In this document: one piece after another, positions 3,506 through 60,413 of the stretch | Numbering within the stretch: position 1 is the stretch's first letter | Layout: each line of letters starts with the position of its first letter | The notes under the pieces: model-generated | Seen by the model: only the letters and a program-made list of their open reading frames with translations | Databases searched by the model: none | Told to the model about the DNA's origin: nothing | DNA from: Blattabacterium cuenoti | GTDB taxonomy: Bacteria > Bacteroidota > Bacteroidia > Flavobacteriales > Blattabacteriaceae | DNA: 64,000 nt | Assembly: GCF_014252275.1 (NCBI RefSeq) | Contig: NZ_CP059214.1 | Span: forward strand, 403,637-467,636 | Reading direction: 5' to 3' | Translations under genes and position numbers: made by a program

Positions 3506-5131
3506 ATTACTCATTTTAATTTCATTGAAAAAATTATAGAGAAAGACATCAAAGATGGATTTCCTTTAGAAAAAATAAAATTTCGTTTTCCTCCGGAACC
3601 AAATGGATATTTACATATTGGTCACGTTAAAGCAATATGTTTAAATTTCGAATTAGGAAGAAAATATAAAGCTCCAGTTTATTTACGATTTGATGATACC
3701 AATCCTACTGTAGAAAATGAAAAATATGTAAAATCAATAAAAAAAGATTTGTTATTTTTAGGATTTCGGTGGAATAAGGAAAGTTATGCTTCTGATTATT
3801 TTCAAAATCTTTATGAATGGGCAATAAAATTAATCAAAAAAGGATTTGCATATATTGATACGCAATCAAAATATGATATAAAATTTCAAAGAAAAGATTC
3901 TTTTGAATCTGGAATTAATAGTATTAATAGAAAAAGATCTATAAATGAAAACTTAGATCTTTTTGAAAAAATGAAAAATGGATTTTTTCGAGAAGGAACA
4001 TGTGTTTTGAGAGCTAAAATAGATATGAGTTCTCCAAACATAAATATGAGGGATCCAATAATGTATAGAATTCTTTATAAAACACATCACAAAACCGGAT
4101 CAAAATGGTGTATTTATCCTACATATGATTGGACACATGGTCAATGTGATTATATTGAACAAATATCACATTCTTTATGTTCATTAGAATTTGAAAATAA
4201 AAGACCTTTGTATAATTGGTTTTTAGAGAAAATTAATCTTAATACATCAAAAATAAGACCAAAACAAATAGAATTTTCAAGACTTAATATAAGTAATACT
4301 GTAACAAGTAAAAGAAAAATTCAATATTTAATTAAAAAAAATATTATCTATTCTTGGGATGATCCACGTATACTAACAATATGCGGATTAAAAAAAAGAG
4401 GATATCCCTCTATTGCTTTAAAAGATTTCATTCATAAAATAGGAATTACAAAAAGAAATAGTATGATTGATATCTCTTTATTGGAATATTGGGGAAGAAA
4501 ACATTTAAACAAAATTTCTACAAGAGTAATGGTAGTATTAAACCCTGTTAAAATCATTATTGATAATTATTGTTCAAATAAAATAGAATGGATCAAATTA
4601 AAAAATAATCCTGAGGATAAACATTCAGGAATACGAAATGTTCCATTTTCTAAAAATATATATATTGAAGAATCAGATTTTTTAGAAGAAAAAAAAGACA
4701 ATTTTTTTCGTTTATTTATTGGGAATAAGGTAAGATTAAAAGGATCTTATGTTATTGAAGCAAAATATGTTGTAAAAAATGAAAAAGGAAAAATTAAAGA
4801 AATCCACTGTAATTATTTTTCAAAAACAGAATCTATAAAAAAAATTAGAAGTACTTTACATTGGGTTTCGATTCCTCATATTTTTCCTATAAAAATAAAT
4901 ATATATAAAACATTATTTTTGAAAAAAAAAAATAATAAACTACTCGATGAGTATGAAATCAATCCAAATTCCAAAAAAACTATTATAGGATATGCAGAAC
5001 CATTTTTAAAAAAAGTTAAAAAAGGAGATTATTTACAATTTCAACGAATCGGATATTTCTGTGTAGAAGAAGTACATAATGGAAAAATCATTTTAAATAA
5101 AACATTATCTATCAAAAATAAATGGGAATAA
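3506..5131 (+). CDS. glnS: glutaminyl-tRNA synthetase, apparently with a non-canonical start codon
   Basis: Class I aminoacyl-tRNA synthetase charging tRNA-Gln. The catalytic HIGH motif (GYLHIGHVKA) lies at 3605-3634, and the KMSKS-like loop reads VTSKR where family members have VMSKR. The anticodon-binding beta-barrels follow, to the stop at 5131. The reading frame is continuous with the family N-terminus (NFIEKIIEKDIKDGFPLEKI), but that frame opens only after TAA at 3491-3493. It then contains no ATG, GTG or TTG until TTG at 3749, which lies well inside the catalytic domain. I place the start at ATT 3506, giving about 541 residues, normal for GlnS; ATT 3524 is another choice. A shift in the seven-T run at 3496-3502 from TTG 3486 is a less likely alternative. 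It converges with rpoC, leaving six bases between the two stops. Confidence 0.85.
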   Translation: MTHFNFIEKIIEKDIKDGFPLEKIKFRFPPEPNGYLHIGHVKAICLNFELGRKYKAPVYLRFDDTNPTVENEKYVKSIKKDLLFLGFRWNKESYASDYFQNLYEWAIKLIKKGFAYIDTQSKYDIKFQRKDSFESGINSINRKRSINENLDLFEKMKNGFFREGTCVLRAKIDMSSPNINMRDPIMYRILYKTHHKTGSKWCIYPTYDWTHGQCDYIEQISHSLCSLEFENKRPLYNWFLEKINLNTSKIRPKQIEFSRLNISNTVTSKRKIQYLIKKNIIYSWDDPRILTICGLKKRGYPSIALKDFIHKIGITKRNSMIDISLLEYWGRKHLNKISTRVMVVLNPVKIIIDNYCSNKIEWIKLKNNPEDKHSGIRNVPFSKNIYIEESDFLEEKKDNFFRLFIGNKVRLKGSYVIEAKYVVKNEKGKIKEIHCNYFSKTESIKKIRSTLHWVSIPHIFPIKINIYKTLFLKKKNNKLLDEYEINPNSKKTIIGYAEPFLKKVKKGDYLQFQRIGYFCVEEVHNGKIILNKTLSIKNKWE

Positions 5132-28747: not shown

Positions 28748-30217
28748 TTATCGAGAAAAATTTCCTTCTTCGTAAGGAGGTATAAATTCATTTTCTTTTT
28801 CAATCACATTTTTTTTATAATCCTCTTCCCAAACTAAAGGAATATATTTTTTTTCTTCTATATTTTTAAACTTCGATTGATCCCCTATAAATCTTAATCG
28901 AAAACTACCTAATCTTCCATTTCTATGTTTCGCTATAATAATTTCTGATTGACCAATACAAGAATCATTTTCTTGATTAGAATCCCAATAATTAAATCCA
29001 TAATATTCTGGCCTATAAATAAATAAAACAATATCTGCATCTTGTTCAATAGAACCAGATTCTCTTAAATCGGATAATAAAGGTCGTTTATTTCCTCCTC
29101 TTGTTTCTACTGCTCTTGATAACTGTGATAATGCAATAATAGGTAAATTAAGTTCTTTAGCCATTGATTTCAAATTTCTAGATATCAAAGATATTTCTTG
29201 TTCTCTATTTTGAAATTTATTTTCATAATCATTTGTATTCATTAATTGCATGTAATCTACAAATATCAATCTTACTCCATATTGAGTAATTAAATAACGA
29301 CATTTTGCACGTAAGTTAAATATCGATAAAGATGGAGTATCATCAATAAATAAAGAAGATTCTTTTAAATCTTTAGTTCTACTTATTAATAAATCGTATT
29401 CTTCCATGGATAAATTAGATTTTTTTAATTTATCTAAAGACAAACATGTTTCTGAGGAAATTAATTTAGTAATTAATTGTATTGAAGACATTTCAAGAGA
29501 AAAAATAACAGAAGGAATTTTTTTTTTAACTGCAATATTCTGTATCATAGATAACATAAAAGTTGTTTTTCCCATTCCCGGCCTTGAAGCTATAATAATC
29601 AAATCAGAATTTTGCCATCCTGAAGTAATATCATCTAATTTTTGAAATCCTGTAGAAATTCCTATTATTCCATTTTTTTTAGTTGTTTTGATTCTATCAA
29701 TAGCTTGCTGAACAAGATCTTTTGTATTTTCATATTTTTTTTTTACCAAATATTTTTGATTTATCTCAAATACTTTGGATTCTGCAAAATTTAATATATT
29801 AAAAACATCAGTTTTTTCTTCATAACATTTTCTTGTAATTTCAAAAGATAAATTGATTAATCTTCTTAAAAGAAACTTTTGAATCACTATTCGACAATGA
29901 TATTCAATATGTGCAGAAGAAATAACTTTCTGTGTTAATTCAGCCAAATATAACTCACCACCTATAATTTCTAACTTATCTATTCTTTTTAATTCGTTTG
30001 ATAATGTGTATAAATCGACTGGATGAGATTCAATATATAATTTTTTGATAGTTTCAAATATTATTTGATGTTCCTTTTTATAAAATACTTCATAAGGAAT
30101 TAGATCAATAATATCATCTAATGCCTTTTTATCTACTATAATAGCACCGATGATCGCTTCTTCTAAATCTATCGATTGAGGAGGAATTATTTTTTTTATA
30201 TGATTATTAATAATAAT
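28748..30217 (-). CDS. dnaB: replicative DNA helicase, apparently with a non-canonical start codon
   Basis: Hexameric replication-fork helicase. The C-terminal RecA-like domain has Walker A ASRPGMGKTTFML, Walker B RLIFVDYMQLM, and the DLRESGSIEQDADIVLFIYR segment. The N-terminal primase-binding domain is fully encoded upstream of the first TTG (29947). The same frame reads PPQSIDLEEAIIGAIIVDKK and GGELYLAELTQKV without interruption. Between the in-frame TAG at 30265-30263 and 29947 there is no ATG, GTG or TTG at all, so translation must start at ATT or ATA. I place it at the first ATT of a triplet at 30217, giving about 489 residues, normal for DnaB; 30214, 30211 and ATA 30199 are alternatives. 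It follows accA after about 50 bases. Confidence 0.85.
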   Translation of the reverse strand: MIINNHIKKIIPPQSIDLEEAIIGAIIVDKKALDDIIDLIPYEVFYKKEHQIIFETIKKLYIESHPVDLYTLSNELKRIDKLEIIGGELYLAELTQKVISSAHIEYHCRIVIQKFLLRRLINLSFEITRKCYEEKTDVFNILNFAESKVFEINQKYLVKKKYENTKDLVQQAIDRIKTTKKNGIIGISTGFQKLDDITSGWQNSDLIIIASRPGMGKTTFMLSMIQNIAVKKKIPSVIFSLEMSSIQLITKLISSETCLSLDKLKKSNLSMEEYDLLISRTKDLKESSLFIDDTPSLSIFNLRAKCRYLITQYGVRLIFVDYMQLMNTNDYENKFQNREQEISLISRNLKSMAKELNLPIIALSQLSRAVETRGGNKRPLLSDLRESGSIEQDADIVLFIYRPEYYGFNYWDSNQENDSCIGQSEIIIAKHRNGRLGSFRLRFIGDQSKFKNIEEKKYIPLVWEEDYKKNVIEKENEFIPPYEEGNFSR

Positions 30218-53929: not shown

Positions 53930-54203
53930 ATGAAAGAAAAAAAAAAAAATATATAGGTTATCTGATCTGAATAAAGGAGATGTTGGAATTATTCATGGGT
54001 ATAAAAATGAAGATGTACCAATAAAATTAATAGAGTTAGGAGTGTTACCAGGAATCAAAATTGAAGTATTATTCGTTTCTATTTTTCATGATCCATTATG
54101 TATAAAATGTGAAAAATCCTATTTAATTTTTAGAAGAAAAGAAGCAAAAAATATTTTAATAAAACCTATTATTAAAAATAAAAAATTATGCAAGGAAGAT
54201 TGA
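53930..54203 (+). CDS. feoA: ferrous iron transport protein A, frame broken at an A13 tract
   Basis: Small cytosolic SH3-like partner of FeoB. From 53955 the frame reads RLSDLNKGDVGIIHGYKNED and continues through IELGVLPGIKIEV, DPLCIKCEKSYLIF and RRKEAKNILI to TGA 54201-54203, a clear FeoA. It has no ATG in that frame. The ATG at 53930 is in another frame, and the two are separated by a run of 13 A (53937-53949). Deleting a single A joins them into a 90-residue protein. Slippage of RNA polymerase or ribosomes on the A tract could supply this; otherwise ATA 53949 would have to serve as start. It overlaps feoB by 16 bases. Confidence 0.8.
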
Positions 54204-56296
54204 TAAAATTAGCCCTTTTAGGAAATCCTAATGTAGGAAAAACTTCTTTGTTTAATAAACTTACAGGACTTAATCAAAAAATAGGGAATTACTTAGGAGT
54301 TACAGTAGAAAAAAAAATAGGATTTTTTTGTGATCAAAAAATAAGCTATCAAATAATAGACTTACCAGGAATTTATAGTATATATCCTTCATCTGAAAAT
54401 GAAGAAATCATTAGTACATTCTTATTGAATCAAAAGATAAAGGATCATCCAGATTATATTCTTTTTGTTGTTGATGCTTCTAACATAAAAAAAAGTCTCC
54501 TTTTATTTAGACAAGTACAAGATCTTGGTTTTTCCATGTTCATTGTTATAAATATGTTAGATGAAGCTAAAAAAAAGGGAATATATATTAACATAAAAAA
54601 ATTAGAAATAATTGTTAATACAAAAATTACTCTTATAAATGCTAGAAATGGAGATGGAATCCAAGAAATGAAGAATCAATTAAAAATTCTAATTCAAAAA
54701 AAAATTCGATCATTACGAATAAAATCTTTATCCTTTTCTATAAAAAAACAATATTTTCATGCTATTCAAGAAGTCAAAAATCATTTTCATATAAAGAATC
54801 CTTATGAAGCTTGGTATCATTTAGCATGTGACAAAAAATTTGTCAAACAAAATCCTTTGTTAAAGGAGATTCGAAAAAAGTATAAAATTATTTCAAAAAG
54901 ATTACAAGTCAAAGAAATATTAGATAGATATGAAGAAATTGGAAATATATATTCTAAAACTGTTTCTGAATTTATTTCTGAAAAAACGAAAAATCGTTTA
55001 GAATTTTTAAAAAAATTAGATAAATCACTAATTCTACATCCTTTTCTAGGATATATAGTATTTTTCTTTTTATTATTTTTTGTTTTTCAATTGATATTTT
55101 TTTGGTCAGAATTTCCTGTAAGGTTTATTAAATTTTTTTTTTCTTACATACAACAAAATGTAGAAAATATTTATACGGGTCCATTAAGTAATTTTTTTTT
55201 ACAAGGATTTTTGCCAGGAATCAATACTATTATTAGTTTTATTCCACAAATTTTTATTTTATTGTTTTTCCTTCTTCTTATGGAAGAAAGTGGATATATA
55301 AGTCGAGTTATATTTTTAATGGATAAAATTATGCGTCCATTTGGTTTAAATGGAAAAAGTATTGTTCCTCTTATTTCCGCTATTTCTTGTTCTATTCCTG
55401 CAATTATTTCATCGAGACATATAGAAAATTACCGAGATCGTTTAATTACTATCCTTGTAACTCCTTTTATGACTTGTTCAGCAAAGTTACCAATTTATAC
55501 TATTATCATATCTTTAATCATACCAAACATCAAATGGGGATTTTTTCAATTGAGAGGGATCATATTAATGATGATGTATATTTTAGGTGTAATTACATCT
55601 CTTTGTGTTGCTATGATATTTCATAAATATTTAAAAAAAAGTTATGATAGTCATTTAATTATGGAAATTCCTACTTATAAAATTCCTGTATTAAAAAATA
55701 TTTTCATTAGTTTATGGTTACATATTAAATCTTTTATTTTAAATACGGGAAAGATTATTTTATTAATTAATGTATTGATTTGGGTATTAGGAACTTTTGG
55801 TCCTTCTGAAAATAATTTTTTTAAGAAAAATCATTCTTTTTTATATCCTATAAATATAGAAGAAAGAAAATTAGAAAATTCTTATTTAGGACTGTTTGGA
55901 AAAAAAATAGAACCTATCATTTCTCCTTTAGGATATGATTGGAAGATTGGAATAGGATTATTATCTTCTTTCGTAGCAAGAGAGGTTTTTGTAAGTACTA
56001 TGAATTCCCTTTATAAAATAGAAGGACCAAAAAATATCAATAAAAATGAAATGCATAAAAATATTTATAATAATAAGTTTGTTTGCAACGTTCCTACAGG
56101 AGTTTCTTTATTATTTTTTTATGCATTTTCTATGCAATGTATGAGTACTGTATCAATCATGAGAAAAGAAACAAAGTCTTGGAAATGGCCAATTACACAA
56201 TTTGTTTTAATGACATTACTAGCATATGTATTTTCTTTTATAAGTTATCAAATACTCATAAAATTCATGGATCATCATGGGAATATATCATTATAG
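54188..56296 (+). CDS. feoB: ferrous iron transport protein B
   Basis: Inner-membrane Fe2+ transporter with an N-terminal G domain. G1 is [19 protein letters not shown]2 lies around LGVTVEKK, G3 is DLPGIYSI, and G4 is NMLDEAKK. The membrane part has two Gate motifs: ISAISCSIPAIISSRHI (first) and FVAREVFVSTM (second). About eight hydrophobic helices are visible. At 702 residues it is complete. The start overlaps feoA. A possible small Cys-rich partner begins at its stop. Confidence 0.97.
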   Translation: MQGRLIKLALLGNPNVGKTSLFNKLTGLNQKIGNYLGVTVEKKIGFFCDQKISYQIIDLPGIYSIYPSSENEEIISTFLLNQKIKDHPDYILFVVDASNIKKSLLLFRQVQDLGFSMFIVINMLDEAKKKGIYINIKKLEIIVNTKITLINARNGDGIQEMKNQLKILIQKKIRSLRIKSLSFSIKKQYFHAIQEVKNHFHIKNPYEAWYHLACDKKFVKQNPLLKEIRKKYKIISKRLQVKEILDRYEEIGNIYSKTVSEFISEKTKNRLEFLKKLDKSLILHPFLGYIVFFFLLFFVFQLIFFWSEFPVRFIKFFFSYIQQNVENIYTGPLSNFFLQGFLPGINTIISFIPQIFILLFFLLLMEESGYISRVIFLMDKIMRPFGLNGKSIVPLISAISCSIPAIISSRHIENYRDRLITILVTPFMTCSAKLPIYTIIISLIIPNIKWGFFQLRGIILMMMYILGVITSLCVAMIFHKYLKKSYDSHLIMEIPTYKIPVLKNIFISLWLHIKSFILNTGKIILLINVLIWVLGTFGPSENNFFKKNHSFLYPINIEERKLENSYLGLFGKKIEPIISPLGYDWKIGIGLLSSFVAREVFVSTMNSLYKIEGPKNINKNEMHKNIYNNKFVCNVPTGVSLLFFYAFSMQCMSTVSIMRKETKSWKWPITQFVLMTLLAYVFSFISYQILIKFMDHHGNISL

Positions 56297-59038: not shown

Positions 59039-60413
59039 AGTTCCATGCAAAAGAGTATAAGATATTGAAAAATATATAATTAACCCTATTACATCAACAA
59101 TAGTTGCAACAAAAGGAGCAGATGAAGTAGCTGGATCTCCCTTAAATTTTTTAATAATAAAAGGCAACATTGATCCACTCAATGTTCCCCATAAAACTAT
59201 ACCAATAAGAGAAAAAAAAACAGAAATTCCAACAAGAATCCAATGTGGCCCATAATTAAATAATTTTGCATTATGCCAAACAACAACACGTAAAAATCCT
59301 GTTAATCCTAAAATACTTCCTAAGAAAAATCCACAAACAATTTCTCTTTTCATTACGATCCACCAATCTTTTATTTTTACTTCTCCTAAAGCCATAGCTT
59401 GAATAATTAAACTAGATGCTTGAGATCCACTATTTCCTCCACTTGATACTACTAAAGGAATAAATAAAGCAAGAACAACCGCTCTTTCTATTACACTTGA
59501 AAAGTTTTGCATGACTGTTGTTGTAAACATTTCTCCTATAAAAAGAAGTATTAACCAGCCTGCTCTTTTCTTTATCAAACTATATAATGGAATATTCATG
59601 TAAGATTGATTTAAAACTTCCACTCCTCCTATTTTTTGAAAATCTTCCCTATAATTTTCGTTTAATACCCAAAGTATATCATCTACAGTAACTATTCCAA
59701 GTAAATAATTGTAATGATCTACAACAGGTAATGAAACACGATTGTTCATGGAAAATATTTTGGTTGCCTCTTCTTCTGTATCAGTAACCTTTAGTGAAAC
59801 AGTAGATTTTTTTTTCATGATATAAGAGACTTTTGTTTTTGGATCAACCAATAAAAATTCTTTAATTTTAATATCGTCTATTAGTTTTCCTTTTTCATCT
59901 ATGACATAAATAATCTCTATAAAATCACTGTTTTTTACTTCTTTTCGTATATGATCTAATACATCTTGGACTTTCCAAGTTTTTTTTACTGCAAGATAGT
60001 AGGGAATCATCAATCGACCAACACTATTTTCTGGATAACCCAAAGATACCAACGTTTTTTTTTTTTCTTCTGGATTCAAATATTTAATTAAATCTTTGAG
60101 GAAATGATTGGGAAGATTTTCTAAAAAAGAAACACGATCATCTACAGATAGATTATTCAATAATTCCATTTTCTTAATCAAAGGTAATTGATCTATAACT
60201 TTTTTTTTAATAGTAAGATCTAATATTCTAAATATAGAAATAGATTTATAAAGATTTAATAATCTAAATATTTTTCCAACAAGAATAGGATTTTTATGAA
60301 TTATTTTAATTAATTCATCGATATTTTTGTTATTTAAAAATTTTTCATTTAAAAAATCATTTTTATTCTCATTAAACTTTTTTTTTTTTTTTAAAAAAAT
60401 TATTTTTAATCAT
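59030..60413 (-). CDS. mgtE: magnesium transporter MgtE, frame broken at an A15 tract
   Basis: Mg2+ channel of the inner membrane. The cytosolic N domain (ILDLTIKKKVIDQL, LSVDDRVSFLENLPNHFL), two CBS domains (PVVDHYNYLLGIVTVDDI), and the five-helix membrane domain with GGNSGSQASSLI and the TIVDVIGLIIYF signature are all present. Much of the N domain lies upstream of the first in-frame start (TTG 60181). The N-domain frame is open back to TGA 60412-60410 without any ATG. An ATG at 60413 in another frame is joined to it if one A is dropped from a run of 15 A (60378-60392 on the plus strand as T). This gives 460 residues, the normal size. The overlap with rluD is nine bases, converging. Confidence 0.82.

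Follow-up and report, generated by a model that had tools for sequence, protein, structure and literature searches.

How is feoA translated in a genome in which its reading frame begins without a usual start codon? The window (the whole 64,000-nucleotide stretch of DNA analysed) belongs to genome G000, a single contig of 561,052 bases with 26% GC. Genome size, base composition and gene content suggest Blattabacterium, the symbiont of cockroaches. At the 5' end of feoA, on the plus strand, an ATG (53930-53932) is followed by AAAG, by exactly 13 A (53937-53949; A13 in the following) and then by TATATAGGTTATCTG. Reading from this ATG gives the eight residues MKEKKKNI and a stop (53930-53956), out of frame with feoA. 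The FeoA frame itself is open from 53934, after a TGA at 53931-53933, to the TGA at 54201-54203 (89 codons; translation KKKKKIYRLSDLNKG...). It scores 49.6-50.2 bits with the Pfam FeoA profile (PF04023; cut-off 23), and no ATG, GTG or TTG is found in this frame upstream of a GTG at 54042. The downstream feoB gene (54188-56296, plus strand) is intact, encodes 702 amino acids and shares its first 16 bases with the 3' end of feoA.

On the plus strand of the window, no run of A is longer than A13. It falls within the length of about nine or more asked of slippage-rescued frameshifts, and it joins two parts that are offset from each other, ATG 53930 and the FeoA frame. With 12 A instead of 13, the ATG would open a FeoA of 90 amino acids (MKEKKKI followed by 83 residues). 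The original prediction described this arrangement as a feoA gene shifted out of frame directly behind its own ATG and rescued by transcriptional slippage. Its description of the run, of the single open FeoA frame and of the 90-residue product obtained by removing one A was borne out by the sequence and its translation. The premise that the ATG is the start of the gene was not supported by the comparison with relatives.

The start codon of feoA in related genomes

The comparison set comprised 48 other genomes of the same genus (49 with G000), and strands were corrected before the starts were compared. The feoA gene is present in all 48. It starts at one homologous codon throughout, which is TTG in 47 genomes and ATG in one, and which precedes the motif Leu-(Ser/Tyr)-x-Leu-Lys. 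In G000 the homologous codon is TAT (53952-53954); from here, the coding frame extends to the stop at 54203. The closest relative, G009, has the TTG start and shares 61% identity with G000 in FeoA, 77% in mgtE and 84% in glnS. Even G024, the feoA of which is broken further on, has kept the TTG. A protein scan of genome contigs with FeoB as query provided no useful relative.

The position of A13 lies upstream of the start in all 48 relatives, and the codon used there is TAT in G000. Comparison of the 49 genomes thus shows that the primary event at feoA was the loss of the ancestral UUG start codon and not an insertion behind the start. By position, A13 and the upstream ATG fall into a region that is the A-rich untranslated leader in the relatives, although the leader itself aligns only loosely. 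Within 30 nt upstream of the feoA start, the longest A run measures 3-9 in the 48 relatives, and an ATG occurs in only five of them. The part upstream of the run is hence not a conserved part of the gene, and the proposed comparison of the tract among relatives speaks against an ancestral start at the ATG. An A run at the 5' end of a gene is not always a slippage site, and feoA may serve as a warning in this respect.

A candidate AUA start and further genes without usual start codons

One codon 5' of the ancestral start position and in frame with it lies an ATA (53949-53951). Following the loss of UUG, this near-cognate AUA, directly behind the A-rich leader, would probably allow low-level translation. 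The predicted product has 84 residues, i.e. the ancestral N-terminus plus one codon, and would need no frame correction. As the statistics below show, FeoA has lost part of its constraint but not all of it, so that the gene may be on its way to loss. Taken as a whole, the account of a lost UUG, weak translation from AUA 53949, weakened constraint and possibly impending loss is the best explanation at hand, and it is put forward tentatively.

Initiation in Bacteroidia relies on adenines at positions -3, -6, -12 and -13 and on the lack of a nearby AUG, and not on Shine-Dalgarno pairing (PMC9976891). Three of these adenines (-3, -6 and -12) precede the ATA at 53949, while the ATG at 53930 has T at -3. 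No notable RNA structure was predicted locally at A13 and the leader (z 0.4 to 0.6). The AUA start is favoured because its context matches this signature, because the leader is not notably structured and because the ancestral UUG was already a weak start. In Staphylococcus aureus, AUA and AUU starts reach about 10-30% of AUG (PMC13009471). Where the Feo system has been tested, FeoB failed to transport iron when FeoA was missing (PMC8749426), so FeoA is normally needed where FeoB is kept; in G000, FeoB is intact and evolves at a normal rate. Several points count against the AUA start. At 26% GC, an in-frame ATA close to the start is not a rare chance event, the AUG 19 bases upstream would compete, and faster evolution of FeoA fits a dying gene as well. 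The conserved frame without ATG, GTG or TTG at its 5' end is what a non-AUG start would leave, but the relatives carry TTG or ATG, and no near-cognate codon, at the start position.

A reassigned AUA or an unusual initiator was considered and rejected: G000 has TilS and three genes for tRNA-Met(CAU), no odd anticodon was seen in the 30 tRNA loci scanned, and decoding looks normal.

The AUA start gains plausibility because other genes seem to initiate without ATG, GTG or TTG as well. Three more genes of the window, namely mgtE, dnaB and glnS, are open and conserved and lack these codons at their 5' ends. The glnS gene (3509-5131, plus strand), which encodes an essential synthetase, is without such a codon in 22 of 30 genomes, and a single fixed codon position carries ATA in 23 of the 30 (AUU in G000), so that the near-cognate codon is conserved in this gene. 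In G019, an in-frame stop stands directly before the fixed ATA. Together, the fixed position and this stop are good evidence that glnS is AUA-started through most of the genus. The dnaB gene is essential. On the minus strand (28748-30184, first TTG at 29947), it starts with ATG in 29 of 30 genomes; G000 alone lacks ATG, GTG and TTG and offers only ATA and ATT as near-cognates, with ATT ATT ATT AAT in place of the ATG CTT ATG AAT of G009. The infC gene of G000 also lacks a usual start codon, which is common for infC, the gene of IF3. An automatic start-codon census covered 164 of 561 kb and was polluted by antisense open reading frames; only feoA, mgtE and dnaB survived inspection, with glnS added from the separate comparisons.

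In every gene of the genus named here, AUA initiation is something that we infer. The genus could conceivably initiate routinely at AUA or AUU (genus-wide in glnS; in infC, dnaB and feoA of G000), the A-rich leader outweighing the identity of the start codon, so that canonical starts can disappear without loss of the gene; this generalization is somewhat more speculative than the account of feoA itself. If feoA, dnaB and glnS truly start at AUA or AUU, gene callers restricted to ATG, GTG and TTG would miscall starts or report false pseudogenes. The genus would then also be a natural test of start-codon relaxation where initiation depends on an A-rich leader.

Selection on FeoA and competing explanations

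When both proteins are placed on a common tree, the branch leading to G000 has a length of 0.724 in FeoA and 0.476 in FeoB. The ratio of 1.52 is the highest among 47 genomes, compared with 0.57 overall. Twice the log-likelihood falls by 7.3-11.8 if the FeoA branch is held at the expected 0.27-0.34. The share of the tree taken up by the G000 branch is 16-19% for FeoA, 7-8% for FeoB, 4.3% for MgtE, 10.3% for DnaB and 6.0% for GlnS; the latter four are not accelerated, and FeoA alone shows the effect. These data indicate that feoA is still under weak selection: FeoA evolves at about double the expected rate, with constraint relaxed and not gone. The original prediction had regarded everything downstream of the run as conserved and under selection. 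The frame does remain coding-like, but FeoA is the fastest relative to FeoB of the 47 genomes, and the statement goes too far.

These rates bear on the possibility that feoA is an early pseudogene, which lost its start recently and yields no useful product, with FeoB acting alone or next to follow. Besides the branch ratio, 7 of 37 near-invariant FeoA residues are changed in G000, compared with 0-4 in other long branches. In G024, feoA and feoB are both wrecked by several frameshifts and stops each, so Feo is dispensable in the genus. Against an early pseudogene, 30 of the 37 residues are kept, and neither a stop nor an internal frameshift interrupts the 83 codons of the frame, for which the chance is about 0.03 if all excess change is neutral (substitutions only). 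The intact feoB with its normal rate, and the dependence of FeoB on FeoA mentioned above, do not fit either. A gene without a useful product is rather doubtful. Probably, feoA either keeps a low level of expression, with the AUA as the simplest start, or is at an early stage of decay.

Transcriptional slippage would make use of the upstream AUG: translation would start at 53930, and RNA polymerase would slip in A13, so that some transcripts with 12 (or 15) A encode the 90-residue FeoA. Genes split at A runs do occur in G000. Five of them are interrupted internally at runs of A11 to A17 with the frame intact beyond, and each is one A short: atpH (A17), rnhA (A12), and at A11 a dCMP deaminase gene, a SpoU methyltransferase gene and a GHMP-kinase-like gene (named from motifs recognised by eye, with no Pfam match at the threshold applied). 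In rnhA, the Pfam RNase H match reaches profile position 60 ahead of the run and continues from position 59 behind it. Among the 49 genomes, atpH is split at this place only in G000 and G027. Relatives carry further run-split genes, namely topA (A11) and coaD (A9) in G013 and a thioesterase gene in G009; feoB of G016 is split near a T11. In aphid and ant symbionts, slippage corrects 12-50% of the transcripts of such genes (PMC5009743).

A parallel to feoA lies in the window itself. At the 5' end of mgtE (minus strand, 60378-60413), an ATG (60413-60411) after AAGGAG is followed by an A15 run (60392-60378) with one A extra for the MgtE frame, and the ancestral ATG has become AAG. The MgtE protein evolves at a normal rate, and mgtE is a better slippage candidate than feoA. 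For FeoA, by contrast, the doubled rate is at odds with the undiminished constraint expected of a slippage-rescued frameshift. Moreover, the ancestral start was not the ATG at 53930, the context of which is poor. The direction matters as well. The five internal cases would be cured by insertion of one A, whereas feoA and mgtE have one A too many, a direction (+1) that is also found in topA of G013. Among the transcription errors of Buchnera, homopolymers hold 151 of 157 insertions but only 16 of 57 deletions (PMC5574713). Since transcription errors in these homopolymers are mostly insertions, rescue would come easily to the five one-A-short genes; feoA would have to gain two A to profit in the same way. 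At feoA, slippage that starts from the upstream ATG is thus possible but not favoured, and we regard it as unlikely. Of the original proposal, it still stands that G000, like insect endosymbionts in general, has genes that are intact apart from a poly(A) frameshift; the correction required at feoA (minus one A or plus two) belongs to the rarer class, the start-based premise is not supported, and the AUA at 53949 needs no slippage. A feoA that is weakly started at AUA, or waning, is favoured over slippage rescue.

Runs of at least 11 A or T are found at 69 places in G000, within the range of 24-178 for the genus. About 45 coding runs of 11-22 A are in frame, which rejects frameshifts as a general property of long runs. 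Loss of mismatch repair as the origin of the runs was rejected as well, as G000 has intact mutS and mutL genes and the run count is ordinary for the genus. Near position 523,835 of G000, a coding frame ends in a cluster of A11, A20, A20, A38 and A14, which could be a low-complexity tail or an assembly problem.

The same survey bears on a sequencing or assembly error, or variation in the population, by which the true or commonest allele would have 12 A and ATG 53930 would be in frame, replacing the lost UUG. Length errors usually sit in long runs, the A15 of mgtE shows the same +1, and an in-frame upstream ATG would explain why loss of the old start was harmless. Yet with about 45 runs in frame and the five internal out-of-frame runs off in the opposite direction, there is no uniform length bias, and an error of this kind is improbable. 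Programmed -1 ribosomal frameshifting was rejected, since +1 is needed at feoA.

Comparison with known systems

The slippage-rescued poly(A) frameshifts of Buchnera and Blochmannia (Tamas et al. 2008; Wernegreen et al. 2010; as cited in PMC3017870) share with feoA the AT-rich genome of an insect endosymbiont, the long A run and the intact frame beyond it. In those cases, the run lies inside a gene with a conserved start, whereas feoA has lost its start, carries the run in what used to be leader, is off by +1 and would be no more than a putative slippage site. The five internally split genes of G000 resemble the Buchnera and Blochmannia cases, which makes slippage plausible in principle in this genome.

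Erosion of feoAB in reduced symbiont genomes, as in G024, offers a second parallel: in G000, too, a Feo gene is losing an essential signal and evolves faster. In contrast to G024, the coding frame of feoA is uninterrupted and feoB is intact.

The favoured AUA start would place feoA beside infC, pcnB and the S. aureus genes ccpN and citZ, for which AUA or AUU starts are described (PMC13009471). Different from these, feoA has no extended Shine-Dalgarno sequence and an A-rich leader of the Bacteroidia type, and its AUA is a predicted start. In common with them, it combines a conserved open frame that lacks ATG, GTG and TTG with an in-frame AUA at about the expected position.
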